DNA of 64,000 nucleotides from Chloroflexus sp. Y-396-1 (GTDB lineage Bacteria > Chloroflexota > Chloroflexia > Chloroflexales > Chloroflexaceae), in assembly GCF_000516515.1 (NCBI RefSeq), contig NZ_KI911784.1, positions 3,572,633-3,636,632 of the forward strand. The letters run 5' to 3'. Every line of letters begins with the position of its first letter. Position 1 is the first letter of the stretch. The notes under the pieces are model-generated. The model was not told the DNA's origin. It ran no database searches and worked only from the letters and a program-made list of their open reading frames with translations. Made by a program: the position numbers and the translations under genes. Below, piece by piece: positions 25,723 to 39,687 of the stretch.

Positions 25723-26206
25723 GGTATAGCAAAAGAAGAAACCATAACCACTTGATGGCTAGCGCTTTCTATCCATCAAGCCTGTCACCGTTCTGGTTGG
25801 CACGGATTGATGTTCGGCTCCTACTCGCGTCTTGATGAGATATGCATTAAGATGCGCGAATGCAAGCGGAGTCGAGATAGAAATAGCCAGATTCCACTTT
25901 TTGACGATCATCCTTGTGTGTGTGATGATCATTCTGAGTAGAATAATACCCGTGATATGCAATCGTTTTGAAACGTTGCGACACCGGAGTATACCGTGGT
26001 TTTCCGTTCAGCTCCTACCCGCAATACCGTCGTCAGTCCACAAGATGCCGATCTCAACGAGATAATGCTTGACAGTTTGCCGAATTTGTGTTCCATCACA
26101 ATGCTTGTGGTACAATAAACAGTTGTGCGTAGAGAGCAGCATAGCGACATCTCCGTATCATCATCGGGTGGGGCTTGACATTCCCAAAAGTAGTAACATT
26201 CAAGCG
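25723..26206. other. A+T-rich intergenic region upstream of the R-M gene
   Basis: About 480 bases with no supported gene. A hairpin CTTGATGG (25751-25758) / CCATCAAG (25773-25780) is present without a T tract. TACAAT near 26112 could be a -10 element for the R-M gene but lacks a well-placed -35. I looked for a second copy of the tRNA 3' end that would mark an integrated element and did not see one on either side of the R-M gene. Confidence 0.5.
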
Positions 26207-28711
26207 ATGAATGCCACAACACTGTTAGCAGGCGCTATACGGTATAGTAATCTTCTTGAGCGGTTAGATGTTCTGCGCTTGGAAGCTCATCGAAAATTGA
26301 CAACGAATCGCGCGGAAAAAGGCCAGTTCTTTACTCCTCAGAAGCTAGCACGGTTCATGGCACGGATGTTCGCCGAACGACCGAGCACCTTGCATATCCT
26401 TGATGCAGGCGCTGGTATAGGCTCGTTATCGGCTGCACTCGTTATTGAAGCATCTCAGTGGGTACCAAAGCCGTCAGCTATTACAGTAACCGCATATGAA
26501 ATTGATCCAACCCTGGTAGAATACCTTCATATAACGCTTGATTCTTGCCAGGAATTATGCTGCCAAGAAAAGATTTCCTTTTCATATGAAATTGTACAAG
26601 ATGATTTCATCAGGGCAAGCGTTGAGATCATACGTGGAAGTACATTATTTACTACGCATAAGTCCTTCAATGCTGCTATTCTTAATCCCCCTTATAGAAA
26701 GATCAATACGGCATCCACCACACACCGTCTTTTGCAGAAAGTTGGGATCGAGACCACTAATATGTATGCAGCCTTTCTTTGGCTCGCTATCAGGTTGATG
26801 GAGCCGAACGGCGAACTAGTTGCGATTACGCCAAGAAGTTTTTGTAATGGCCCCTATTTCCTTCCCTTCCGAAAAGCTCTTCTGGAAACGATGTCCATAC
26901 ATCAGCTCCATATCTTTGATGATAGAGATAGAGCCTTTGCAGAAGACGATGTTTTACAAGAAAATGTAATTTTGCACGCAACGAAGTCACGTCGGCAAGG
27001 AAACGTAATAATTTCGTCGAGCGCTAACCCTGATGATCCATATATAACGGTTCGTAAAGTTGATTATCACCAACTGGTTTATCCTGATGATCCCAACGTA
27101 TTTATCCATATTGTTCCCAGTGGATTGAGCCAGAGAATTGGGCAACAGGCTCGTCGTCTTCTTGCATCAATTGACGAAATAGGCATCATGGTTTCTACTG
27201 GCAAAGTTGTTGATTTCCGTTCTATCGACTTCCTAACGGAAAGGCCAGATGCAGGAACCGTTCCGTTGATTTATCCGGGCAACTTTTTTCAAGGTTATAT
27301 TGCCTGGCCTCATGGACAAAACAAAAAACCATCCGCTATACGGTTGACAAACGAGACCAAACATCTCCTTATACCCGCCGGCTGGTATGTCTTGGTAAAA
27401 CGCTTCTCAGCCAAGGAAGAAAAAAGGCGTATTGTCGCAGCAGTATGTGATCCTACTCGCTTAAACTCTGAATTCATAGGCATAGAGAATCACTTAAACT
27501 ATTACCACCAAAACGGTAGGGGTCTTCCTCCGTTATTGGCAAAAGGGTTAGCTGCGTTTCTTAACTCAACGCTTGTGGATGAATACTTTAGGCAGTTTAG
27601 CGGTCATACACAGGTAAATGCAGCTGATTTGCGTAGTCTCAAATATCCCTCGCTCTCTCAGTTATTTGCGCTCGGCGAAGAAATTGGTGACACATTTCCA
27701 AAACAGGAAGAGTTAGACCAAATAGTTCTAAGAATACTAGGAATGGACGCTATGAGTATTGACTTAAACGCTAAAAAGAAAATTGAAGAAGCTCTCACCA
27801 TTCTGCGTGCGCTACAAATGCCCAAAGCGCAGTTGAATCAACGTTCTGCATTGACCCTGCTTGCACTGCTTGATATGAAGCTAAACACAGATTGGTGTGA
27901 TGCTTCAAATCCGTTGCGTGGTATTACTGAAATGATGGATTATTTTCGTGAACATTTTGGTATTTCCTATGCACCGAATACTCGCGAAACGGTTCGTCGT
28001 TCTACAGTTCACCAATTCGTGCAAATGGGACTAGTTATTGCTAATCCCGATGACAGAGCGAGACCCGTTAATAGTCCAAAGACAAAGTATCAAATTGATG
28101 ATAGTTTCCTCAAGGTCATTCGTACATACGGCACTAGTGAATGGGATGTAAACTTGAAAGTCTATCTTAAGAATGTGCAAGAGTTACGCAGATTGCGTGA
28201 GAAAGAACGAGAGATGGCTCTCATTCCAGTAACGTTGCCAGATGGGAGAGAGGTCAAGATCACTGCGGGCGGACAAAACGATCTCATAAAACAAATCATA
28301 GAAGAGTTCTGCCCTCGCTATACGCCTGGTGGTCGGGTTATTTACATTGGTGATGCTGGCGATAAGTTTAGAGTGTATGAACAAGATTATTTTGCAAGTT
28401 TGGGTATCATCGTTGACGAACACAGCAAAATGCCTGATGTCATTGTTCACATGGAAAATAAAAACTGGCTAGTGCTTATTGAAGCAGTTACTAGCCACGG
28501 TCCAATTGACATCAAACGTCGTAATGAACTTAAGGATTTGTTTAAGAATAGGAAAGCCCCACTGGTATTTGTGACAGCATTTCCTACGCGGAAAGTAATG
28601 ATGAAGTATCTTCAGGAAATCGCATGGGAGACCGAAGTTTGGGTAGCCGAAGCACCGAGTCATCTCATACATTTCAATGGTGAACGTTTTCTTGGCCCAT
28701 ACGATGAATAG
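26207..28711 (+). CDS. Single-chain restriction-modification enzyme: adenine methyltransferase fused to BsuBI/PstI-type endonuclease
   Basis: An 834-residue protein joining two activities. Residues 1 to about 560 are an Eco57I/M.PstI-type N6-adenine DNA methyltransferase: KGQFFTPQKLARFMARMF, SAM-binding motif I LDAGAGIGSLSAAL (about 65-78) and catalytic NPPY (160-163), followed by a target-recognition part. Residues from about 590 to the end match the BsuBI/PstI endonuclease family: IYIGDAGDKF, KMPDVIVH (Asp744), LIEAVTSHGPID (Glu759), then VFVTAFPTRKVMMKYL, WETEVWVAEAP and HFNGERFLGPY. Known BsuBI/PstI systems keep the two activities in separate genes and recognise CTGCAG. The ATG at 26207 matches the start of related methyltransferases; the in-frame extension to 26069 looks non-coding. 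The gene is much more A+T-rich than its neighbours, suggesting horizontal acquisition. Confidence 0.9.
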   Translation: MNATTLLAGAIRYSNLLERLDVLRLEAHRKLTTNRAEKGQFFTPQKLARFMARMFAERPSTLHILDAGAGIGSLSAALVIEASQWVPKPSAITVTAYEIDPTLVEYLHITLDSCQELCCQEKISFSYEIVQDDFIRASVEIIRGSTLFTTHKSFNAAILNPPYRKINTASTTHRLLQKVGIETTNMYAAFLWLAIRLMEPNGELVAITPRSFCNGPYFLPFRKALLETMSIHQLHIFDDRDRAFAEDDVLQENVILHATKSRRQGNVIISSSANPDDPYITVRKVDYHQLVYPDDPNVFIHIVPSGLSQRIGQQARRLLASIDEIGIMVSTGKVVDFRSIDFLTERPDAGTVPLIYPGNFFQGYIAWPHGQNKKPSAIRLTNETKHLLIPAGWYVLVKRFSAKEEKRRIVAAVCDPTRLNSEFIGIENHLNYYHQNGRGLPPLLAKGLAAFLNSTLVDEYFRQFSGHTQVNAADLRSLKYPSLSQLFALGEEIGDTFPKQEELDQIVLRILGMDAMSIDLNAKKKIEEALTILRALQMPKAQLNQRSALTLLALLDMKLNTDWCDASNPLRGITEMMDYFREHFGISYAPNTRETVRRSTVHQFVQMGLVIANPDDRARPVNSPKTKYQIDDSFLKVIRTYGTSEWDVNLKVYLKNVQELRRLREKEREMALIPVTLPDGREVKITAGGQNDLIKQIIEEFCPRYTPGGRVIYIGDAGDKFRVYEQDYFASLGIIVDEHSKMPDVIVHMENKNWLVLIEAVTSHGPIDIKRRNELKDLFKNRKAPLVFVTAFPTRKVMMKYLQEIAWETEVWVAEAPSHLIHFNGERFLGPYDE

Positions 28712-29604: not shown

Positions 29605-30270
29605 TTATTCTTGATTGGGCTGATGACGTTCGGTGTATACCTGATCCACCGTTGTATAATACCCTTCCCCTACGCACGTGCGACAGAGCACTTTCCCATC
29701 GTGTATGACTTCACGAGCGTTGATAATCTCTTCACCACACTGCTCACACATCGCTCGTAGTCCGTTACGGCTGATGATTGCTTTCAGATCAACCGTCAAG
29801 GTGACCGGTTGGGCGTTCAGGAGTTCATTCAGCGGCATGAGTTGATAGGCGATCAGGTACGCATGCCAACGACTCCGTGCGTTGGGAGCATACCCACGGG
29901 CCAATTCGCGCACATCGGGGCGAGGTGCAATGCGTACTGCCTGCCCGGTTTGCGTGTCAACGAATGTTGCGGCAACCTTGCCTACGTCAATCAGCCGCAT
30001 TGTGCGTCGTCCTAACCAGCAACCGGTGGCAACGCTGACTCCATCGGCAAAACAGCCATCGGTTTCGACGAAGGTGTAGAGCCGTTTGTTTGTTTGAGGT
30101 AATGCTAGACCTAACAGTTCGCCGGCGTACATTCCCATCCGTGCACCGAGAACTTGCCGAGGGCATAGATGACGGTGCATGGCCGACGAGCGGCGTAGCA
30201 GATCGGCCAGTGGTTCAGGCGCAACAACTGCTTGCAGTGATGCAGAATCGATCAGTTCATCAATTGACAC
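29605..30270 (-). CDS. FmdE-domain protein with C-terminal zinc finger
   Basis: A 221-residue protein of the FmdE family (formylmethanofuran dehydrogenase subunit E-like). The conserved core reads HRHLCPRQVLGARMGMYAGE, then VETDGCFADGVSVATGCWLG and RTMRLIDVGKVAATFVDT. A four-Cys zinc-ribbon motif closes it (CEQCGEEI ... VLCRTCVG). The GTG at 30270 was chosen because AAGGAGGAG precedes it; a longer frame to 30354 has no ribosome site. FmdE-domain proteins occur widely in non-methanogens, often near molybdenum or tungsten enzymes, with no settled function. Here the closest Mo enzyme gene ends about 840 bases to the right on the same strand. A metal or molybdopterin-related role is conjecture. 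Confidence 0.82.
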   Translation of the reverse strand: MSIDELIDSASLQAVVAPEPLADLLRRSSAMHRHLCPRQVLGARMGMYAGELLGLALPQTNKRLYTFVETDGCFADGVSVATGCWLGRRTMRLIDVGKVAATFVDTQTGQAVRIAPRPDVRELARGYAPNARSRWHAYLIAYQLMPLNELLNAQPVTLTVDLKAIISRNGLRAMCEQCGEEIINAREVIHDGKVLCRTCVGEGYYTTVDQVYTERHQPNQE

Positions 30271-30354
30271 CGGTCTCCTCCTTGAAGGTATGATAAGGTT
30301 GCCTGTCGTTGTCAGTTGTGTGCAGCGTAACATCGAAAAGTAGTTTTCCCGCAA

Positions 30355-31105: not shown

Positions 31106-34100
31106 TTATCCAACCCGCTCTAATTTCACCTTCGAGTCGTAGAAGACAGCGCTGCCGCCAACTAGATCGCTCAGGGTTACGTTGCCCAACACCGGATCGA
31201 CCCGCATCGCAGCATTGGCGTGAACACCGGCCGCCCGCCGTGGATCTCCTGGGATCGTCACACCGTCGATTACGATGTCACCGGCGCCACTGGCAAAGTG
31301 CCCCCAACCCAACGGGAAGGAGATGACACCGGGTCGAATGCCTTCAACGACCTTGACTTTCCCGATCATTGGCTTACGAGTGCCGTTGCGCAAGTCCCAC
31401 ACGCCCTCGGGATTACTTGCTGAACTAATCCGCACCCGATCACCATCGCGCAAACCGAGCCGTTCAGCATCGATACGGTTGATCAGGATCGGGTTTTCGG
31501 GCATCAGTGCCAGCAGCCAGTAGTTCGCAATACCACGAGCTTTGGCCATCATCGCCTCTTTGTACGTGATCAGGTGCAGGTCATAACCTTCATCAATCAC
31601 CGGCGAACCATCGGCAGCCAAACCGGCGGGAATGTAGGCGGGGTAGCCGAGTAAGTGCTCACCGGTCATGGAATTGATAGTATTGGCCGTCTTCTCTTGG
31701 TACAGATTGATCTGTTTCGCATAAGGATTACCGACCAGATCGCCCTTCCACCCCTTCTCGTAGGCCTGGTAGCGCCCACCGCGATTGAGCACATACACTG
31801 TCTGGCGCCAGAGCTGCTCATCGTTTCCGACAGCGGCACGCCATGTCGCCTCGTCAAATACACTCGGCGGCAAGAAACGTCGTGCCCGGCGGAAGACTTC
31901 GAGTTCGTTGTCGTCGGCTGGGGGCACACCATCGCTACCGTCTTCCTTTTCACCGAAAGCAATATTGGCCGCCAGTTTGAGATACAGATGTTCAGGGCGG
32001 GTAAACGGAATACCTTCGCCAAAACCGTTAGGACCGAAGCCGGGCAGTTCAAGCCGTTCAGCAATGGCGAGCACGAGCGCCTCAAAGCTGAGCGGGATCT
32101 CTTCACCAAAGACCTTGACCGTCGGCCAGTTGGGGAGACTGATCGCAGGCTGGCGAATATTCTCCACTTTCCAGGGCACACTTGGGTGCGAGCCATGAAA
32201 TTCCCAGCGTTCAAGGAAGCTCAAATCGGGGAAGATGTAATCGGCATAGGTGCTGGTTTCGCCGACCATAATGTCGCAGGTTATGATCAGTGGAATCTTC
32301 TTCGGGTCGGCCAATATCTCGATCACCGTCTGCGCAGCCGGTAGGGCATAGTTGATCGCCGACATGTAGAACATAGCAACTTTGATCTGGTACGGGTAGG
32401 CATCTCCCATCGAGGGAACGTCTTCTTGGTAGATATCGGTTGCTAGCGGGAACCACGGTCGGCGCGCCGGATAGCCGTTAAACAGGGTCGATTTCTCGTA
32501 GGCTGTATTGGTGCGGAGCAGGTCAATACCGAACGGTACATTCGCCCCGTTGTTCATCTTTTCAATCATGAACGGCCCTTTTGCTTTGTTGCCCAGCCGG
32601 TCGTATGTGGTAGGTTTGATCAGGCCACCGCGATGATCGAAATTACCGATCAGCGCGTTGAGCGTGTAGAAGGCGAAGTTGGTATAGAATCCGTTGGTAT
32701 GCTGCGACGGGCCACGGTGAATATCGGCTACCGCACGAGTGCCATGGCGGGTAAATTCGTAGGCGATCTCAATAATATCTTCTGCCTTCACATCGGCAAT
32801 TGCAGCCCATTCTTCAATCGTATGCGTGCTGGCAGCTTCGTAGATAATCTGCAAGCCGCTCTTGACAGGAATCCCGTTCAGTTCAGTACTGACGAGCAGA
32901 TCGCCCATAACCGGCGCCGCATCGGGATTATTGGGATCGATGGGAGTGGGAACACCGTTAACCAGCGCAACAAACGGATCGAACGTAAAGCTGGCGCCGT
33001 CAGTGGTCACATATTTCTTGACCTTCTTCCCTTCAGCGTTGGTCTCTTCGACTACTGTCGTTAACCCGATTTCGCTGGCGCGCAAGAACTTACCTGGCTT
33101 TCCATTCTTGATCTTGACCAACCAGGTCGCGTTTGTCCAGCTCGGTTCACCGATCGCGGTAGCTGCCGCTTTGTTGGCGGCGGCGAGAAACGTTGCGTTG
33201 TAGCGCTTCTGCTCGATGATCCAGCGGATCATTGCCATAGCGAACGCCGCGTCGGTGCCCGGTTTAATCGGTATCCACTTCCACGCCTTGCTGGCAAGTT
33301 TACTCAAGCGGGGATCAAGGACAACATAGCGTAGACGCCCGTCGATGACCCCATGCGTGATACGGGGCGATTGTGGTGTCGGCCCATAATTGGCCTCAAA
33401 GTGGTTGGTGCCGACGAAGATGACGAATTCTGCATGACCGAGATCGGCCTGCCAGTAGAATTTTTGACCGCCGCTAAACTTGCCGGTAGCCGGATCAAAC
33501 TGCTCACTCATCGCTTTGCCGGTAAAGTACAGCGATCCCTGGCAGACAGTCGTGTGACCGTTAGCGTTGACCGAGCCGAAGCCTGATTTCACAAAGCGTT
33601 GGACAAGATCGCCGCGACCATTTTTCAACCGACCCCAGATAAAGGCAAATTGATTGTTTTTCGGTCCTAGATCGGGGTGATCGGGATCGATCAACACATC
33701 GAGATGTTCCGCAAAGTCACGTTTGAACTGCTCAACAAGAGCCGGTTTGTCTTCCGGTTTGGCATCCAGAATAGCTTTTACGGCAGCAGCCATCTCTTTG
33801 GCCAGTTTGGCGTCTTTGAGAGCGTAGAGTGCTCGTAAGCCTTCTACTGGACCCTCTCCGAACAGATCGCCACCTTCAACGATCTCATTGATTGCCTGAT
33901 CAAAGTCAATCGTGATCCACTGACCGCCGCCGCGCGGTGTCCCCGGTTTGCGTTTCAGCACTCGCATGAGACGGTACGGATCGTAAGCTGTTTGAATCCC
34001 TGCCTGTCCTTTTGGACAGAGGGCGCCATCAATTGGCCCAATAGTGCTAACAGGCGTACTGTAAGAGAGTGGTGGTTCCATCGTCCAGGGACTGTAAGGA

Positions 34101-34360
34101 TTGCCCTCAAGTTTAGCCGCTATGCCATCAATCAGTTTAACCTTGAGGCCGCAGCCAGTATTGCATTGCAGGCAGACAGTCTGGATCGAATTGGTGGCAT
34201 CAACCAGCGGTAGTTCAGCAGTCGGTGCTTCACTGCGGGCCAATCCGGACAATGGGCCAAAGCCGAGCAATGCAGCACCACCACCGATCAGCGCTGAGGT
34301 TTTGAGAAAATCACGGCGACTCATATCTTTAGCGCCGGGCATAGTCTTCTGTCGTTTCAT
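31106..34360 (-). CDS. Tat-exported molybdopterin oxidoreductase, TtrA-like catalytic subunit
   Basis: A 1084-residue periplasmic molybdo-bis(MGD) enzyme of the DMSO reductase superfamily. A twin-arginine signal (SRRDFLKTSALIGGGAALLG) starts at about residue 14. The proximal [4Fe-4S] site follows: Cys63, Cys66 and Cys70 in TVCLQCNTGCGLKV, and Cys115 in GALCPKGQAG. The probable Mo ligand is Cys273 in HTTVCQGSLYFTG; a Cys ligand is the rule for the polysulfide/tetrathionate/arsenate branch. The C-terminal domain has the cofactor-binding pattern (PENPILINRIDAERLGLRDGD). The ATG at 34360 has AGGAG eight bases upstream. It is the last gene after the Fe-S and NrfD genes, as ttrA is in ttrBCA. Tetrathionate, polysulfide or another sulfur compound are candidate substrates; the specificity is inferred from gene order and regulators. 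Confidence 0.82.
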   Translation of the reverse strand: MKRQKTMPGAKDMSRRDFLKTSALIGGGAALLGFGPLSGLARSEAPTAELPLVDATNSIQTVCLQCNTGCGLKVKLIDGIAAKLEGNPYSPWTMEPPLSYSTPVSTIGPIDGALCPKGQAGIQTAYDPYRLMRVLKRKPGTPRGGGQWITIDFDQAINEIVEGGDLFGEGPVEGLRALYALKDAKLAKEMAAAVKAILDAKPEDKPALVEQFKRDFAEHLDVLIDPDHPDLGPKNNQFAFIWGRLKNGRGDLVQRFVKSGFGSVNANGHTTVCQGSLYFTGKAMSEQFDPATGKFSGGQKFYWQADLGHAEFVIFVGTNHFEANYGPTPQSPRITHGVIDGRLRYVVLDPRLSKLASKAWKWIPIKPGTDAAFAMAMIRWIIEQKRYNATFLAAANKAAATAIGEPSWTNATWLVKIKNGKPGKFLRASEIGLTTVVEETNAEGKKVKKYVTTDGASFTFDPFVALVNGVPTPIDPNNPDAAPVMGDLLVSTELNGIPVKSGLQIIYEAASTHTIEEWAAIADVKAEDIIEIAYEFTRHGTRAVADIHRGPSQHTNGFYTNFAFYTLNALIGNFDHRGGLIKPTTYDRLGNKAKGPFMIEKMNNGANVPFGIDLLRTNTAYEKSTLFNGYPARRPWFPLATDIYQEDVPSMGDAYPYQIKVAMFYMSAINYALPAAQTVIEILADPKKIPLIITCDIMVGETSTYADYIFPDLSFLERWEFHGSHPSVPWKVENIRQPAISLPNWPTVKVFGEEIPLSFEALVLAIAERLELPGFGPNGFGEGIPFTRPEHLYLKLAANIAFGEKEDGSDGVPPADDNELEVFRRARRFLPPSVFDEATWRAAVGNDEQLWRQTVYVLNRGGRYQAYEKGWKGDLVGNPYAKQINLYQEKTANTINSMTGEHLLGYPAYIPAGLAADGSPVIDEGYDLHLITYKEAMMAKARGIANYWLLALMPENPILINRIDAERLGLRDGDRVRISSASNPEGVWDLRNGTRKPMIGKVKVVEGIRPGVISFPLGWGHFASGAGDIVIDGVTIPGDPRRAAGVHANAAMRVDPVLGNVTLSDLVGGSAVFYDSKVKLERVG

Positions 34361-34409
34361 ATCAACACTCCTGTTCGTATTGCATGCGAACATTCGCTAT
34401 CAATTTAGG

Positions 34410-35555
34410 TCAATCGGCGGTTACAGTCGCTTCGGTTGTTGGTCGGGTAAAGAGCGGCAGCCGATCGGTACCGACCAGGAAGCCAATCGTTGCTGCACCG
34501 ACGATTCCAGCCGTTACTGCCCACTCCATTAGGCTTGGACTGTAGGTAAAGCTGAGATGTGGGCCGTGGAAGGCTTCGCCCAAACCTTGTAGTTCGGGTA
34601 AGCTAAGCGCCGGGAAGATAATATTGGCGCGGGCAACAGCCAGACCGATGAGGATACACAGTCCCATTAGTCCTGCGGCAAAGCCCTGTTTTCCGATTGG
34701 CATAGTGAGAATAATCAACGGCAGGAGCATTCCAATACCCAATTGCAAAAGCCAGAAGGCCCAGCCGTAAGGACCGAACAGCACCAGATTGATCGCTGCT
34801 GCACCGTGGCTACTATTCTGGTACAGCGCCTGTGACACGTCGCTCCAGAGGTAGTAGCCTTTGACTAACAGTAACACGACCGTTGCCAGGCTTAAGACGC
34901 GGAGTTGCTGTGTTCGATGTGGATCGTATTGCGGACCAAACCAACCGATAGCAATGAGCATTAGGGCTACGCCAGCAGCAAGATTGAAGACGGGGAACTG
35001 GGCTGGCAAATTACTGACGTGCCAACTTACGCGGTTTTGATTGACACCCAAGAGAGCACCGATACCACCACTCAGGAAGATGGCGAGAATCAGACCAACC
35101 GCCATGATCGGTTTCAACCAGCGTGATCGCTGTGGTTGAAAACTAAGCCAGAGGCTTATAATGATGATCCCTAGGAATATCGTGTACCCCCAGACCAGTT
35201 GTGCCATGACAGAGCCAAAATGAGGTTGGAGGTAAACCTTCCAGATACGAGACATGTGACCTAGATCGAGAAGAATGGCGGCCAGACCGGCAGGGAGCGT
35301 GACCAATGCTCCCCAGAGCGCCATCCGTCCGCTACCACGAAAGAGCGGCAGGTCGAAGAGTAAATCGAGAGTTGCCAGCATGAAGGAACCGGTTGCAACT
35401 CCGGCGAAGAACATATAGAGTGCTACCCATAGTCCCCACACCACATACGAACCATAGTTCGCGTGCATGTGACCATAGACGAGGCGGTCGTACAAGCCCC
35501 ACAGGCCAATCAGGAGGCCGAGAATGCCAGCGATGTAAAGGAGTCGCTTTAACAT
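34410..35555 (-). CDS. NrfD/PsrC-type membrane subunit (TtrC-like)
   Basis: A 381-residue polytopic membrane protein with nine or ten hydrophobic helices of the NrfD/PsrC family. Such subunits anchor the periplasmic Fe-S and Mo subunits and exchange electrons with menaquinol. The first helix begins LLYIAGILGLLIGLWGLYD; a HANYGSYVVWGLWVALYMFFAG stretch contains the polar residues typical of the quinone-side helix. The ATG at 35555 was preferred to GTG 35570 because AGAGGT precedes it. It starts 11 bases after the Fe-S subunit stop and is followed 49 bases later by the molybdoenzyme. Confidence 0.88.
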   Translation of the reverse strand: MLKRLLYIAGILGLLIGLWGLYDRLVYGHMHANYGSYVVWGLWVALYMFFAGVATGSFMLATLDLLFDLPLFRGSGRMALWGALVTLPAGLAAILLDLGHMSRIWKVYLQPHFGSVMAQLVWGYTIFLGIIIISLWLSFQPQRSRWLKPIMAVGLILAIFLSGGIGALLGVNQNRVSWHVSNLPAQFPVFNLAAGVALMLIAIGWFGPQYDPHRTQQLRVLSLATVVLLLVKGYYLWSDVSQALYQNSSHGAAAINLVLFGPYGWAFWLLQLGIGMLLPLIILTMPIGKQGFAAGLMGLCILIGLAVARANIIFPALSLPELQGLGEAFHGPHLSFTYSPSLMEWAVTAGIVGAATIGFLVGTDRLPLFTRPTTEATVTAD

Positions 35556-35566
35556 AAGTCTACCTC

Positions 35567-36517
35567 TCACTGCAAGTAGTACACTCGTGGTTCAGTACCA
35601 AGTTCTTCTTTCAAACGCATCACGTTTGGTCTAGCGATCAGTTCGCTTACCAGACTCTCCGGATCGTTGGCATCGCCAAAGAACGTTGCCCGCCCGATAC
35701 ACGTGGTGACACAGGCCGGTAGTTGACCGTTGAGCACCCGATGCATACAGAAGTGACATTTGCGCACATTCCCAACCGGTGAGTCGTGCAGGTCACGCCG
35801 GGCGTGAACCTTGCTATACTCGAAAGTGCTTGTTTGCTCATAACTCACGGCCTGCTCGGCTCCGAGCATCATCGCTGCTGATGGGGTGTTTGCAGTGTAG
35901 GTATAACCAAAGTCGAAGGTGCGGGCTCCGTAGGGGCAGGCGGCAATACAAGCCCGGCAGCCAATGCACTGCTCGTAGTTGACTTCAACAACACCGTGTT
36001 CATTAGTAAAGGTGGCCGAGACCGGACAAACTCCTGTGCACGGTGGATTGTCACATTGCATACATGGACGAGGAATGAAACGTCGACTGACATTTGGATA
36101 GCGACCAATTTCCTCTTCAATAACCGGTCGATACACAACCCCAGGCGGTAACTTGTTCTCGGCCACGCAGGCAATCGTACAGCCATGGCAGCCCACGCAG
36201 GCACGTAAATCGATGACCATTACCCAGCGTCGTTCAGCGACCGGTTTGGTCAATGCACGTAGGAGATCAGTACGCATCCGCTCAAGCTGGTCAATGGGTG
36301 CACCGCTGATCCTGGCAGCACGGAGACGGGCAATTTCCGCTTCGTAGGCAGCCAATGCCTCCTCTGGGGTAAGCATATCGATTGTATCGGTTGGTTTTTC
36401 GGTGATAGCCGATGGTGCTACTGAAGCCACAGCGAGGGCGCCAGCACCGGCTACCAGGGCGCCGAGAAAACCTCGGCGACTCACCGGGATTAAGGGAATA
36501 GTCGGTTGCCGGGACAT
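35567..36517 (-). CDS. Tat-exported 4x[4Fe-4S] electron-transfer subunit (TtrB-like)
   Basis: A 316-residue ferredoxin-type subunit that would carry electrons from the NrfD protein to the molybdoenzyme. The twin-arginine signal [20 protein letters not shown] is at residues 13-32. Sixteen cysteines in four groups are visible: [37 protein letters not shown] and CHFCMHRVL...CVTTC. This arrangement fits PsrB/TtrB/DmsB. Compared with enterobacterial TtrB (about 250 residues) it has an extra helical insert after the signal (residues about 45-95). The start is preceded by a ribosome site AAGGAG and a palindromic control region. It is the first gene of the three-gene enzyme operon. Confidence 0.92.
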
Positions 36518-36538
36518 AAGCCAAACTCCTTGTGCAAT

Positions 36539-36564
36539 TCACTATAGTGATGGATGTGACATCC
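36539..36564. promoter_or_regulatory. Two adjacent perfect palindromes before the TtrB-like gene
   Basis: TCACTATAGTGA at 36539-36550 and GGATGTGACATCC at 36552-36564 lie 22 bases upstream of the ATG at 36517. On the minus strand the first contains TATAGT, usable as a -10 element; the second covers the spacer and the edge of the -35 position, where no consensus -35 is found. That is the pattern of an activator-dependent promoter, and the LuxR-type regulator gene is next door. Binding is inferred. Confidence 0.45.
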
Positions 36565-36678
36565 CTACTACCCACACTCTATGAAAAAGACAGCCGTATC
36601 GCTAGCAGGAAAAGTTGGATTCTTGGTAAGGATGGGGTCAGGTTTTTCCTGACAATCTTCTACCGTGCGTAAAGGGAT

Positions 36679-37320
36679 TCAGTTCGCAGTCAGCAGGTGA
36701 TGATCGAGCGCATACTGAACGAGCGCCGCTCGTGATCGCAGGCCGAGTTTTTCCATGCCACGTGTGCGGTACGTTTCTACCGTTTTTGGGCTAAGACTCA
36801 ACTGGTTGGCTATTTCGGCTGCGGTATAGCCGCGTGCTACCAGCAATAGCACTTCCCGTTCACGGTCACTGAGACTCTCCCATGGACTTACCGACGGCGG
36901 TTGGGGCAGAATTCCCTCAAGCAACTGGCGGGTGAGGGCAGGATGGATGTACAACTCGCCACGCAGCACAGCGCGAATAGCCGCAATTAACTCGGTATCG
37001 GCAGCGCGTTTCAAGACATAACCGTGCGCACCGGTAGCTAGCGCCTGCCGCACATAGCCCTCATCATCGTGCATCGTTAGCACGAGAATCCGTGCGTAGG
37101 GTGCTGCTTTCTGAAATGCCGGAATAGCCGATAAACCACTGCCGCCGGTAAGACTGAGATCGAGCAAGATCAGGTCTGGTTGTAGTGTCCTCGCCTGGTT
37201 AAGTGCGGTCTGGACGTCTTCAGCCTCACCAATCACTTGTAGATCAGGTTGGCTGTCAAGCAATAATCGTAAGCCAGCGCGTAACACTGCGTGATCATCG
37301 ACCAGCAGAATGCGGTTCAT
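36679..37320 (-). CDS. NarL/LuxR-type response regulator (TtrR-like)
   Basis: A 213-residue two-component regulator. The receiver domain has the acidic pair (VDDH), phosphoacceptor Asp54 (LILLDLSLTGG), the conserved Thr (VLTMHDDEG) and Lys (YVLKRAADTE). The C-terminal HTH spans about residues 148-210 (LSDREREVLLLVARGYTAAEIA, LSLSPKTVETYR). The ATG at 37320 lies inside the histidine kinase gene (26-base overlap) and has GGGAGGG upstream, so translation is probably coupled. It is the likely activator of the Fe-S/NrfD/Mo operon that starts 161 bases downstream. Confidence 0.94.
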   Translation of the reverse strand: MNRILLVDDHAVLRAGLRLLLDSQPDLQVIGEAEDVQTALNQARTLQPDLILLDLSLTGGSGLSAIPAFQKAAPYARILVLTMHDDEGYVRQALATGAHGYVLKRAADTELIAAIRAVLRGELYIHPALTRQLLEGILPQPPSVSPWESLSDREREVLLLVARGYTAAEIANQLSLSPKTVETYRTRGMEKLGLRSRAALVQYALDHHLLTAN

Positions 37321-38773
37321 CGCAGCCCTCCCTCGTGGGTGGTAAAGGTATTTCGACGTACAACGTCGTGCCATGTCCGGGAGCCGACTCGATGATGAGC
37401 TGACCGTTCAAGAGTTCGGCTCGTTCGCGAATCCCGTTCAGACCGAGGTGACCATCACCGTGGATGTTATCAGGATCGAACCCACATCCGTCATCTTCAA
37501 TAATTGCCCGCACTCGATCAGATCGGCGTTCAATGACAACACTGGCAGTTGTAGCGTGAGCGTGGCGGATCACATTGGTTAATGCTTCCTGAACAATGCG
37601 GTAGAGCGCGGTTTCCACAACCGGCATCAGGCGAACATTGTCTAGACCAATGAGGGCTAGATCGATCGTGAGTTTACTACGAGCGCGACAATCGGCTACA
37701 TAGCGTTGTAGGGCAGCCGCTAATCCAAGATCATCAAGGACACTTGGCCGTAACTGGCGGGCCAGTGCGTGCAAATCATTGAGAACTTGTCCTACAATCC
37801 CGCGTAAATCATCTACTTGTTGCTTAAGGTCTGGTAAGCGGTAACGATCGGCCAATGAGCGTAATCCAATAAGGAGCGAGGTTAACGCCTGACTAGTGCT
37901 ATCATGCAATTCACGGGCAATTCGCTTACGTTCTTCCTCTTGGGCAGTAATGATTTGCGCTACATATTGAGTTCGTATCTGCTCACGCTCGGCTCGTTCA
38001 CGTTCAGCCTGAGCCAGCGCGTCGCTCATAGCGTTGAACGCATCGGTGAGCGCACCGATTTCATCATTTGCCCAACGCCTGGCGCGTTGGCTGAAATCAC
38101 CCTGAGCGACAGCTTTTGTTAGTTCTACCAACTGCAAGATCGGACGAGTAAGAATCCAGGTGAGGAAGGCCGCAGCGGTGATCCCGATCGCTGCGACCAT
38201 GACTGTGGTTAGAAGCAACTGACCGGTAACGGTCGTAACAGTCCGTTCGCGAGCAGCAAGCGACAGGCCAACTCGGGCGATACCAGCCCGACCGTCAAAG
38301 ATTGGTACGGCGGTATCCCAAATGTCGCCTTCATCGGTTGTCAGTAATATGCTACGATGATGTTCTTGCGCTGTAACCGTATTGGCATCGCGTAGACCGA
38401 CCGGAAAACCACTTCCAAATGTATGGGCAACAATTGTTCCCTCTGAGTCGATGATGAATGCGTAACGTACATCAGGATTATTGATCTGTGTATCGCGCAG
38501 CAGGCGGAACAGACCATAATAATCCTGCATCAGTACCAGATCGGTTGCTCGTGCCGCCAGATCACGGCCTATTGCCACCGAACGCTCGTAGGTCTGAGAC
38601 GTGAGGGTTTGTTCTAGCAGCAGCCGAACTTCAATGGTTGCAGCCACACCCATCAGGATGACCAGGCCCAGCACGATGCCCAGGATTTTGGCGCGAATGT
38701 TGACCGCACCAAGAACATCCCAGGCTCTCGTGAACCAAATGATGAGACGATGTTGCGCGTATTTTGCATTCAT
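37295..38773 (-). CDS. Membrane histidine kinase (HAMP, HisKA_3, HATPase)
   Basis: A 492-residue sensor kinase. TM1 is at about residues 27-48; an extracytoplasmic domain of about 130 residues follows (YYGLFRLLRD, YAFIIDSEGTIVAHTFG); TM2 is at about 181-207; HAMP runs to about 260. The dimerisation helix has the phosphoacceptor His290 in KRIARELHDSTSQALTSL, typical of NarX/DegS-type kinases. The ATPase domain has N-box and G-box elements (EALTNVIRHAHA, IEDDGCGFDPD, GHLGLNGIRERAE, GHGTTL). Its ATG overlaps the stop of the PhnD-like gene by four bases (ATGA). In enterobacterial TtrS a PhnD-like domain is fused to the kinase; here it is a separate protein. Confidence 0.93.
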   Translation of the reverse strand: MNAKYAQHRLIIWFTRAWDVLGAVNIRAKILGIVLGLVILMGVAATIEVRLLLEQTLTSQTYERSVAIGRDLAARATDLVLMQDYYGLFRLLRDTQINNPDVRYAFIIDSEGTIVAHTFGSGFPVGLRDANTVTAQEHHRSILLTTDEGDIWDTAVPIFDGRAGIARVGLSLAARERTVTTVTGQLLLTTVMVAAIGITAAAFLTWILTRPILQLVELTKAVAQGDFSQRARRWANDEIGALTDAFNAMSDALAQAERERAEREQIRTQYVAQIITAQEEERKRIARELHDSTSQALTSLLIGLRSLADRYRLPDLKQQVDDLRGIVGQVLNDLHALARQLRPSVLDDLGLAAALQRYVADCRARSKLTIDLALIGLDNVRLMPVVETALYRIVQEALTNVIRHAHATTASVVIERRSDRVRAIIEDDGCGFDPDNIHGDGHLGLNGIRERAELLNGQLIIESAPGHGTTLYVEIPLPPTREGCDEPHSAGR

Positions 38774-39687
38774 GGCGATAATAATCCTACCCGTGATCGT
38801 AACAGGCGAGCGCTGGCATAGGCAGCATCATCGATCATGACAAACCGCTCGATACCCAGTTCTGCCAGCGCTCTTTGCGCTAACGGTGATGGATCGTCGG
38901 CCATCCTTAGCAGAATGTTCTGTAATTCGACGCGCAACTGCGGGCGTACTCCTGAACCGACTACCACTGGTGGAATCCCAAAAGGGGGTGAGGTGTGAAT
39001 AACTTTTACCTTACTTCGCAGTTCAGGATTACGCTTAACCGCAAAATCAAAGACGAGGCTATCAACTGAAGCACCGTCGGCTAAATTATTGGCAACAGCT
39101 TCAATCGCTGTATCATGTGTGTAAGTGAAAAAAGTGTTACGAAAGAACGTCTCAGGAACTTCACCCAACTCCTGAATCAGTGCTGTTGGGTACACTCGCC
39201 CGCTAAATGACGTGGGATCGGTAAACGCAAACACCTTATCGCGCAAATCAGCCATCGTTTGGGCCGAACTATTCGCTGGCACAATTAAGAGGGAATGGTA
39301 ACTGGTTTCACCATTGACCTGCGGCGCCACTAACAGGCTCATCCCGTAGCGGTCGCGGCCATCAATATAGGCACTGGTACAGACGAACGCAACATCAACT
39401 TCGTTCCGCCCGATCAATTCATTGGTTTCGGTATAAGTACGGCGCTGAATGAGAATAACCTGACGACCCAATCGGGTGCTCAAGTAGTCAAGCAGTGGCT
39501 GATAGCTTTGCACTGTTCCCTGTGGTGAAATAACCGAAGCTACCGACACGCGCAAAGGTGGTGACGTGACAGGCGTCGGCGCCGGTAGCGGTTCGAGATG
39601 GTTGAGCCGGATCGGCGTTGTGGTCGCTGCCTGACAACCGCTCAACATGAACAAGGCGAGAAAGATATAGAGAAGATAATGGTTCAT
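38770..39687 (-). CDS. PhnD-like periplasmic binding lipoprotein (sensor component)
   Basis: A 305-residue lipoprotein with signal peptide and lipobox LSGC (Cys18), a Pro/Thr-rich linker, then a phosphate/phosphonate-type (PhnD) solute-binding domain: PLRVSVASVISPQGTVQSYQPLLDYLSTRL, DVAFVCTSAYIDGRDRYGM, FTDPTSFSGRVYP, TAIEAVANNLADGASVDSLV. No ABC permease or ATPase genes are nearby. Instead it overlaps the histidine kinase gene by four bases. This places it as the ligand-binding input of the two-component system rather than a transporter part. The ligand might be a sulfur oxyanion such as tetrathionate; this is inference. Confidence 0.85.
   Translation of the reverse strand: MNHYLLYIFLALFMLSGCQAATTTPIRLNHLEPLPAPTPVTSPPLRVSVASVISPQGTVQSYQPLLDYLSTRLGRQVILIQRRTYTETNELIGRNEVDVAFVCTSAYIDGRDRYGMSLLVAPQVNGETSYHSLLIVPANSSAQTMADLRDKVFAFTDPTSFSGRVYPTALIQELGEVPETFFRNTFFTYTHDTAIEAVANNLADGASVDSLVFDFAVKRNPELRSKVKVIHTSPPFGIPPVVVGSGVRPQLRVELQNILLRMADDPSPLAQRALAELGIERFVMIDDAAYASARLLRSRVGLLSP

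Follow-up and report, generated by a model that had tools for sequence, protein, structure and literature searches.

A predicted arsenic-sensing module upstream of a Ttr-lineage molybdoenzyme operon in Chloroflexus sp. Y-396-1 and its recurrence across Chloroflexota

Introduction

The three-component XSR design is already known from AioXSR, ArxXSR and ArrXSR (PMC5908839). In Melioribacter roseus, ArrTSR, of which ArrT is PhnD-like, has been described together with Ttr-type BCA genes and arsRPCB, and transcription of ttrA went up on arsenate there, with only psrA/phsA reaching significance (PMC5492636). TtrA of Pyrobaculum aerophilum is also arsenate-induced (PMC5492636). Here we report a locus of Chloroflexus sp. 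Y-396-1, located in a window of 64,000 nucleotides (3.573-3.637 Mb of the closed 4.89 Mb genome), that encodes a PhnD-like lipoprotein (X), a kinase (S), a regulator (R), an Fe-S subunit (B), an NrfD protein (C) and a molybdenum (Mo) subunit (A). It probably serves arsenic respiration, with an ArrXSR-type sensor controlling an alternative respiratory arsenate reductase of the Ttr lineage. The kind of system is already known, because M. roseus has the same architecture, and no description of such a locus in Chloroflexus was found in the open-licence literature.

As in M. roseus, compared here by description, a PhnD-like sensor, a kinase and a regulator precede Ttr-type BCA genes, with arsenic genes nearby, although that species belongs to the phylum Ignavibacteriae and its ars genes are near the locus, whereas those of the Chloroflexus genome are non-adjacent. 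The locus shares with ArrXSR of Chrysiogenes arsenatis the family, fold and pocket of X, a two-domain regulator without AAA+ and a TCAGG-N-CCTGA palindrome before the enzyme genes (PMC5908839), but the Chrysiogenes module controls ArrAB, not the enzyme found here. The three-component design and the conserved pocket residues of X are common to AioXSR and ArxXSR, which differ in having an AioS of the HisKA family and AAA+ sigma-54 activators (AioR/ArxR), where Chloroflexus has a HisKA_3 kinase, a NarL-type regulator and a different X loop. Salmonella-type TtrRS-TtrBCA resembles the locus in its BCA order, a distant enzyme homology and the PhnD-like sensing domain of TtrS; in contrast, that domain is fused to the kinase, its pocket is unconserved, and the kinase family, enzyme clade and active-site motifs are others. 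Gene order, domains, the family, fold and pocket of X, the conservation of X-S-R, the arsenic context and an operator-like motif were computed in this work. Individual loci are labelled L and genomes of the comparison set G, each with a number.

Results and Discussion

Gene organization and the sensor X

The six genes are co-directional on the minus strand at 31106-39687, in the transcription order X-S-R-B-C-A as read from their open reading frames (ORFs; Table 1). A sequence-only reading of the same DNA had pointed out six minus-strand genes with tight overlaps; these were present at the positions given there, and the Pfam domains agreed. X and S overlap by 4 nt (ATGA) and B and C also by 4 nt, while the overlap of S and R is 26 nt, as previously read, provided that R begins at an internal ATG ('MNRILLVDD'), and 80 nt with the longest ORF of R. 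A lipobox (LSGC) in X and a twin-arginine translocation (Tat) motif (SRRGFLG) in B were read from the sequence. Since the same order recurs across Chloroflexota, chance does not explain the arrangement.

Judged from its sequence and its modelled structure, X is very probably a sensor of arsenic oxyanions. When searched against PDB with phmmer, X had its best match in ArrX of Chrysiogenes arsenatis (2.6e-60), followed by AioX (6e-32) and PtxB (8e-22), and the TtrS model matched X at 2.9e-5 only. An AlphaFold2 model of X, built from 16 relatives (mean predicted local distance difference test score, pLDDT, of 87), had five ArrX entries as its top Foldseek matches, with 39-40% identity and including the arsenate-bound 6xl2; the template modelling (TM) score against ArrX was up to 0.94 by target length, and AioX ranked next, then PtxB and PhnD. 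The AioX residues contacting arsenite or phosphate are Y88, C106, Y131, S161, S163, H192 and D210 (PMC5908839), and by alignment all seven are found in X (Y85, C103, Y130, S160, S162, H191 and D209). They were kept in 80 of 80 X relatives, where the position of AioX S163 is either S or T. In comparison, a bona fide TtrS (961 bits) had none of the seven, and the pocket cysteine is changed to glycine in PtxB and in the transporter PhnD of this same genome. X is further ArrX-like in a Phe beside the first serine and in a loop standing in for the AioX signalling loop. ArrX itself, according to isothermal titration calorimetry, binds arsenate (Kd 1 uM) and phosphate and does not bind tetrathionate, thiosulfate or selenate (PMC5908839). 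Nearest homology, pocket, and kinase and regulator partners all place X in the ArrX/AioX subfamily; the X tree did not settle if ArrX is the sister of the Chloroflexota X proteins.

S is a HisKA_3 kinase with a Cache domain, whereas TtrS and AioS are HisKA kinases. R consists, according to Pfam, of REC and GerE domains only, without AAA+; this is the CitB/NarL-like regulator type of ArrXSR modules, the ArrR class being without AAA+, unlike AioR and ArxR (PMC5908839). TtrSR has sensor domain and HisKA kinase in one protein, recognised by the TtrS model, and this arrangement was not found in X and S. The earlier proposal that the sensor is a TtrS split into pieces was rejected on the pocket, the kinase family and the E-values, X being 40% identical to ArrX when the structures are aligned. 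What stood of that proposal is that the kinase/regulator pair controlling a Ttr-type BCA molybdoenzyme probably has as its sensor a PhnD-like protein of its own, tethered to the membrane.

Because X matches arsenic sensors in both fold and pocket, the cluster most likely drives an arsenate-respiring Mo enzyme. For the ligand of X, its contact with S, the binding of R, and the substrate and direction of A, we infer the following scheme. On the outside of the membrane, the lipoprotein X would bind arsenate and dock on the Cache domain of S; R, once phosphorylated by S, would bind a palindrome in the R-B gap and turn on B-C-A. The NrfD-like C would then oxidise quinol and electrons would pass via the Fe-S clusters of B to the Mo-bis(pyranopterin guanine dinucleotide) (Mo-bisPGD) of A, which would reduce arsenate to arsenite outside the cytoplasm.

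The catalytic subunit A

A is rather likely to reduce arsenate. The best NCBIfam model for A was TtrA with 484 bits, below its cut-off of 1750, and the ArrA model gave 122 bits, below a cut-off of 1600; as controls for the TtrA model, Hafnia TtrA scored 2075 bits and the TtrA-like proteins of Azospirillum and Paracoccus scored >1200. BCA order, Tat signals on B and A, and a Cys ligand of Mo are features of the lineage of TtrA, SrdA and alternative arsenate reductases, and all were found here. In a tree of 57 sequences, which lacked SrdA, the Melioribacter enzyme and the archaeal Pyrobaculum members, A fell among 40 Chloroflexota rows that formed a clade (support 96), and not inside the clade of characterised-type TtrA; the deeper joins are uncertain owing to a Halomicrobium row on a long branch. 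A seven-row proteobacterial group was separate from A, its deepest member being an enzyme whose gene lies inside a plasmid-borne ars island of Citrobacter arsenatis. A thus belongs to the Ttr/Srd lineage and lies outside the proteobacterial TtrA clade.

Around the Mo cysteine, A reads HTTVC, the Chloroflexota rows H-T-x-I/V-C, the Citrobacter enzyme HTNIC and Arx-type enzymes HSSMC, against HGxYC in TtrA. A second motif, RGxxQHTNG, is present in A and nearly all Chloroflexota rows and in similar form in the Citrobacter and Arx-type enzymes, against HGG(M/T)M in TtrA. At the level of sequence these motifs set A apart from TtrA proper; they are no proof of an arsenic substrate, because they are possibly ancestral.

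The TtrA-like BCA operon of the Citrobacter arsenatis plasmid (L196:10013-14817) is flanked by arsRDABC-type genes on one side and by another arsC on the other. It is like the Chloroflexus locus in enzyme lineage, BCA order, active-site motifs and arsenic context, and unlike it in sequence (~32% identity), with no XSR genes listed beside it. The operon is possibly a mobile alternative arsenate reductase, and proteins similar to its TtrA-like enzyme occur on plasmids of Citrobacter, Enterobacter and E. coli.

Conservation across Chloroflexota

A survey of 400 Chloroflexota genomes, with A taken at E <1e-60 and X at >=44% identity, found A in 35, X in 25 and both in 20 genomes. Within the genus Chloroflexus, X and A were both present in five of the seven genomes (this one and four further species), and the other two had neither. 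Named genomes were scanned as well and yielded 80 further X loci, labelled almost only as Chloroflexota; the kinase came after X in 78 and R was present in 72 of them, and B-C-A lay nearby in about half, contig ends permitting. Co-conservation across the phylum had been put forward as a check on the locus, and X-S-R-B-C-A does recur there. The same 78 loci agree with the earlier remark that the PhnD-like gene has no transporter partner, as X pairs in relatives with a kinase and not with ABC transporter genes. X as part of a phosphonate transporter was likewise rejected, since the transporter PhnD sits with PhnC, PhnE and PhnE elsewhere.

In some loci, X-S-R precedes PhsA-like enzymes in place of B-C-A, and therefore the sensor is constant while the enzyme varies. 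Two types of PhsA-like molybdoenzyme, each accompanied by Fe-S subunits, were seen next to X-S-R at L083, L086, L088, L122, L150, L153, L158, L165 and L177. Canonical ArrA as the partner of X-S-R at L083, L086 and L088 was rejected, as these enzymes are PhsA-like and under every cut-off. By analogy with the arsenate-induced Psr/Phs enzyme of Melioribacter, the PhsA-like enzymes beside X-S-R are candidates for undescribed arsenate reductases.

An FmdE-family gene was found next to X-S-R or after A in 39 of the 80 related loci, and the PhsA-like operons of L083 and L086 have a NarJ-type chaperone in its place. We infer that the FmdE-family protein may be a maturation factor or a cofactor accessory for these enzymes. 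At L096, L102 and L103, in small Chloroflexota genomes of 1.4-1.8 Mb, the BCA operons encode close relatives of A (53-56% identity) but lack both X-S-R and the palindrome.

A palindrome upstream of B

The gap between R and B contains in relatives (L069-L187) the palindrome TGTCAGGAAAATCCTGACA and near variants, of a TGTCAGG-N5-CCTGACA-like form, and the copy of this window is GTCAGGAAAAACCTGAC. A degenerate form, TGTNNGGNNNNNCCNNACA, of which the window copy misses the last base, was counted 39 times in 1.76 Mb of loci, while shuffled sequences gave 0-4, and almost every copy lies shortly ahead of a B, X, FmdE or PhsA-like gene; the palindrome was also found ahead of the PhsA-like operon in L086. 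Upstream of B, TGTNNGGNNNNNCCNNACA was present in 33 of 71 loci with X, a count that is partly circular because the motif was derived from Chloroflexus sequences, and in 0 of 9 in genomes without X. The independent part of this evidence is the 0 of 9 contrast together with the loci of other families. The core equals that of tcaggtttttccctga, the site proposed upstream of Chrysiogenes arrA (PMC5908839), and the core alone is not specific, because the looser form TCAGG-N4-7-CCTGA was found 35 times in this genome. The palindrome is probably the operator of R, and it could perhaps be used as a search handle for non-Arr arsenic enzymes. A terminator of R is an unlikely explanation, as the palindrome also precedes B where R is not upstream (L120 and L127).

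Arsenic genes around X

Of 79 independent loci, 7 have an Acr3 arsenite pump near X, where 0.09 would be expected from the density of these pumps in 27 related genomes (P ~1e-11). ArsC lies directly upstream of X in one genome, and in sister species an island of ArsJ-associated GAPDH, ArsJ, MerR, ArsR, ArsP and TauE abuts X; in this genome the island is found at 13-20 kb, apart from the locus. Strong-class ArsP-type permeases were detected in every X-positive Chloroflexus genome (5 of 5) and in no X-negative one (0 of 2). The earlier suggestion of a sulfur oxyanion as the likely substrate was not supported, since the pocket of X is of the arsenic type and the locus and its relatives sit among arsenic genes.

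Arsenite oxidase AioBA is also encoded in this genome (1023 bits, cut-off 359), and AioA was over the cut-off in 4 of 5 X-positive and 0 of 2 X-negative Chloroflexus genomes. A was present without AioA in G267 and G335. The AioBA genes (L212:1565-5859; AioA at G000 C1:2263631-2266051) have a NarL-type regulator nearby and no X gene of their own in the stretch read.

Alternative substrates and directions

A tetrathionate or other sulfur-oxyanion reductase, with a TtrS sensor split into three genes, would fit the best NCBIfam match of A, the BCA order as in ttr and the position of A inside the Ttr/Srd lineage. This is quite unlikely, as A is far under a cut-off that is approached more closely by the Azospirillum and Paracoccus proteins, lies outside the proteobacterial TtrA clade and carries motifs resembling the Arx-type and Citrobacter ars-island enzymes instead of TtrA, and X is without every TtrS pocket feature. 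SrdBCA shares the BCA order. The genomic surroundings are arsenic, not selenium, however, and make an SrdBCA-like selenate reductase with a sensor answering to selenate very unlikely, even though SrdA belongs to the same lineage as A (PMC7331816). The third alternative, in which A is an arsenite oxidase working in the Arx-like direction and feeding the photosynthetic chain while X senses arsenite, draws on the phototrophic organism and on its genus, for which photosynthesis fed by arsenite is known (PMC7331816), on AioX and ArxX binding arsenite with the same pocket (PMC5908839), and on AioBA occurring only in those Chloroflexus genomes that also carry X and A. We consider it unlikely, because X has the ArrX-type loop without the AioX signalling loop residues, AioBA already fills this role in 4 of 5 genomes and A occurs without AioA in G267 and G335, and published arsenic data on the Ttr lineage concern reduction.

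Several points weigh against arsenate respiration as the function of the locus. A close X is missing from 15 of the 35 A-carrying Chloroflexota genomes, so A can serve without X, perhaps on another substrate. According to the literature, one promiscuous lineage houses tetrathionate, selenate and arsenate reductases, and SrdA and the Pyrobaculum and Melioribacter enzymes are missing from the tree of A. A conserved pocket does not by itself distinguish arsenate from arsenite (PMC5908839), and the ars island of this genome is not adjacent to the locus. In Melioribacter, the rise of ttrA fell short of clear significance, and the authors of that study preferred the Psr/Phs enzyme as principal arsenate reductase (PMC5492636).

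With arsenate respiration as the preferred reading, we lean towards the view that one arsenic-sensing X-S-R module and a shared palindromic operator are re-used across Chloroflexota for molybdoenzymes of two or more unrelated kinds, among them the Ttr and Psr/Phs types, which would reveal phylum-wide, undescribed non-Arr arsenate reductases. The module coexists with AioBA in Chloroflexus, and therefore one phototroph could oxidise arsenite and respire arsenate. Three things look new: the distribution throughout the phylum, the re-use of a single sensor module beside enzymes that differ, and the common operator. Surveys of arsenate respiration usually use arrA and would miss this locus and many hot-spring and aquifer relatives. 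If the reading is true, a model anoxygenic phototroph with arsenite oxidase gains arsenate respiration, and the X pocket and the operator would be a sequence handle separating arsenic from tetrathionate or selenate enzymes where the catalytic subunit alone cannot.

Other features of the window

Table 1. Features of the locus, with positions in the window
Feature	Position	Strand	Domains and remarks
X, PhnD-like lipoprotein, ArrX/AioX subfamily, predicted arsenate (arsenic oxyanion) sensor	38770-39687	-	Pfam Phosphonate-bd
S, membrane histidine kinase	37295-38773	-	Pfam sCache_3_2, HAMP, HisKA_3, HATPase_c
R, NarL/FixJ-type response regulator	36679-37320 (internal ATG); longest ORF 36679-37374	-	Pfam REC, GerE
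Putative R operator, palindrome GTCAGG-AAAAA-CCTGAC	36637-36653		~120 bp upstream of B, in the R-B gap 36518-36678
B, Tat-exported four-cluster Fe-S subunit	35567-36517	-	Pfam 4Fe-4S dicluster
C, NrfD-type membrane quinol-oxidising anchor	34410-35570	-	Pfam NrfD
A, Mo subunit, predicted Mo ligand C284	31106-34393	-	Pfam Molybdopterin, Fe4S4; Tat signal
FmdE-family protein (PF02663), after A	29605-30354	-	Pfam; often conserved there in relatives

Elsewhere in the window, an Eco57I/N6 methylase and a BsuBI/PstI restriction nuclease are fused in a single 880-aa gene at 26069-28711.

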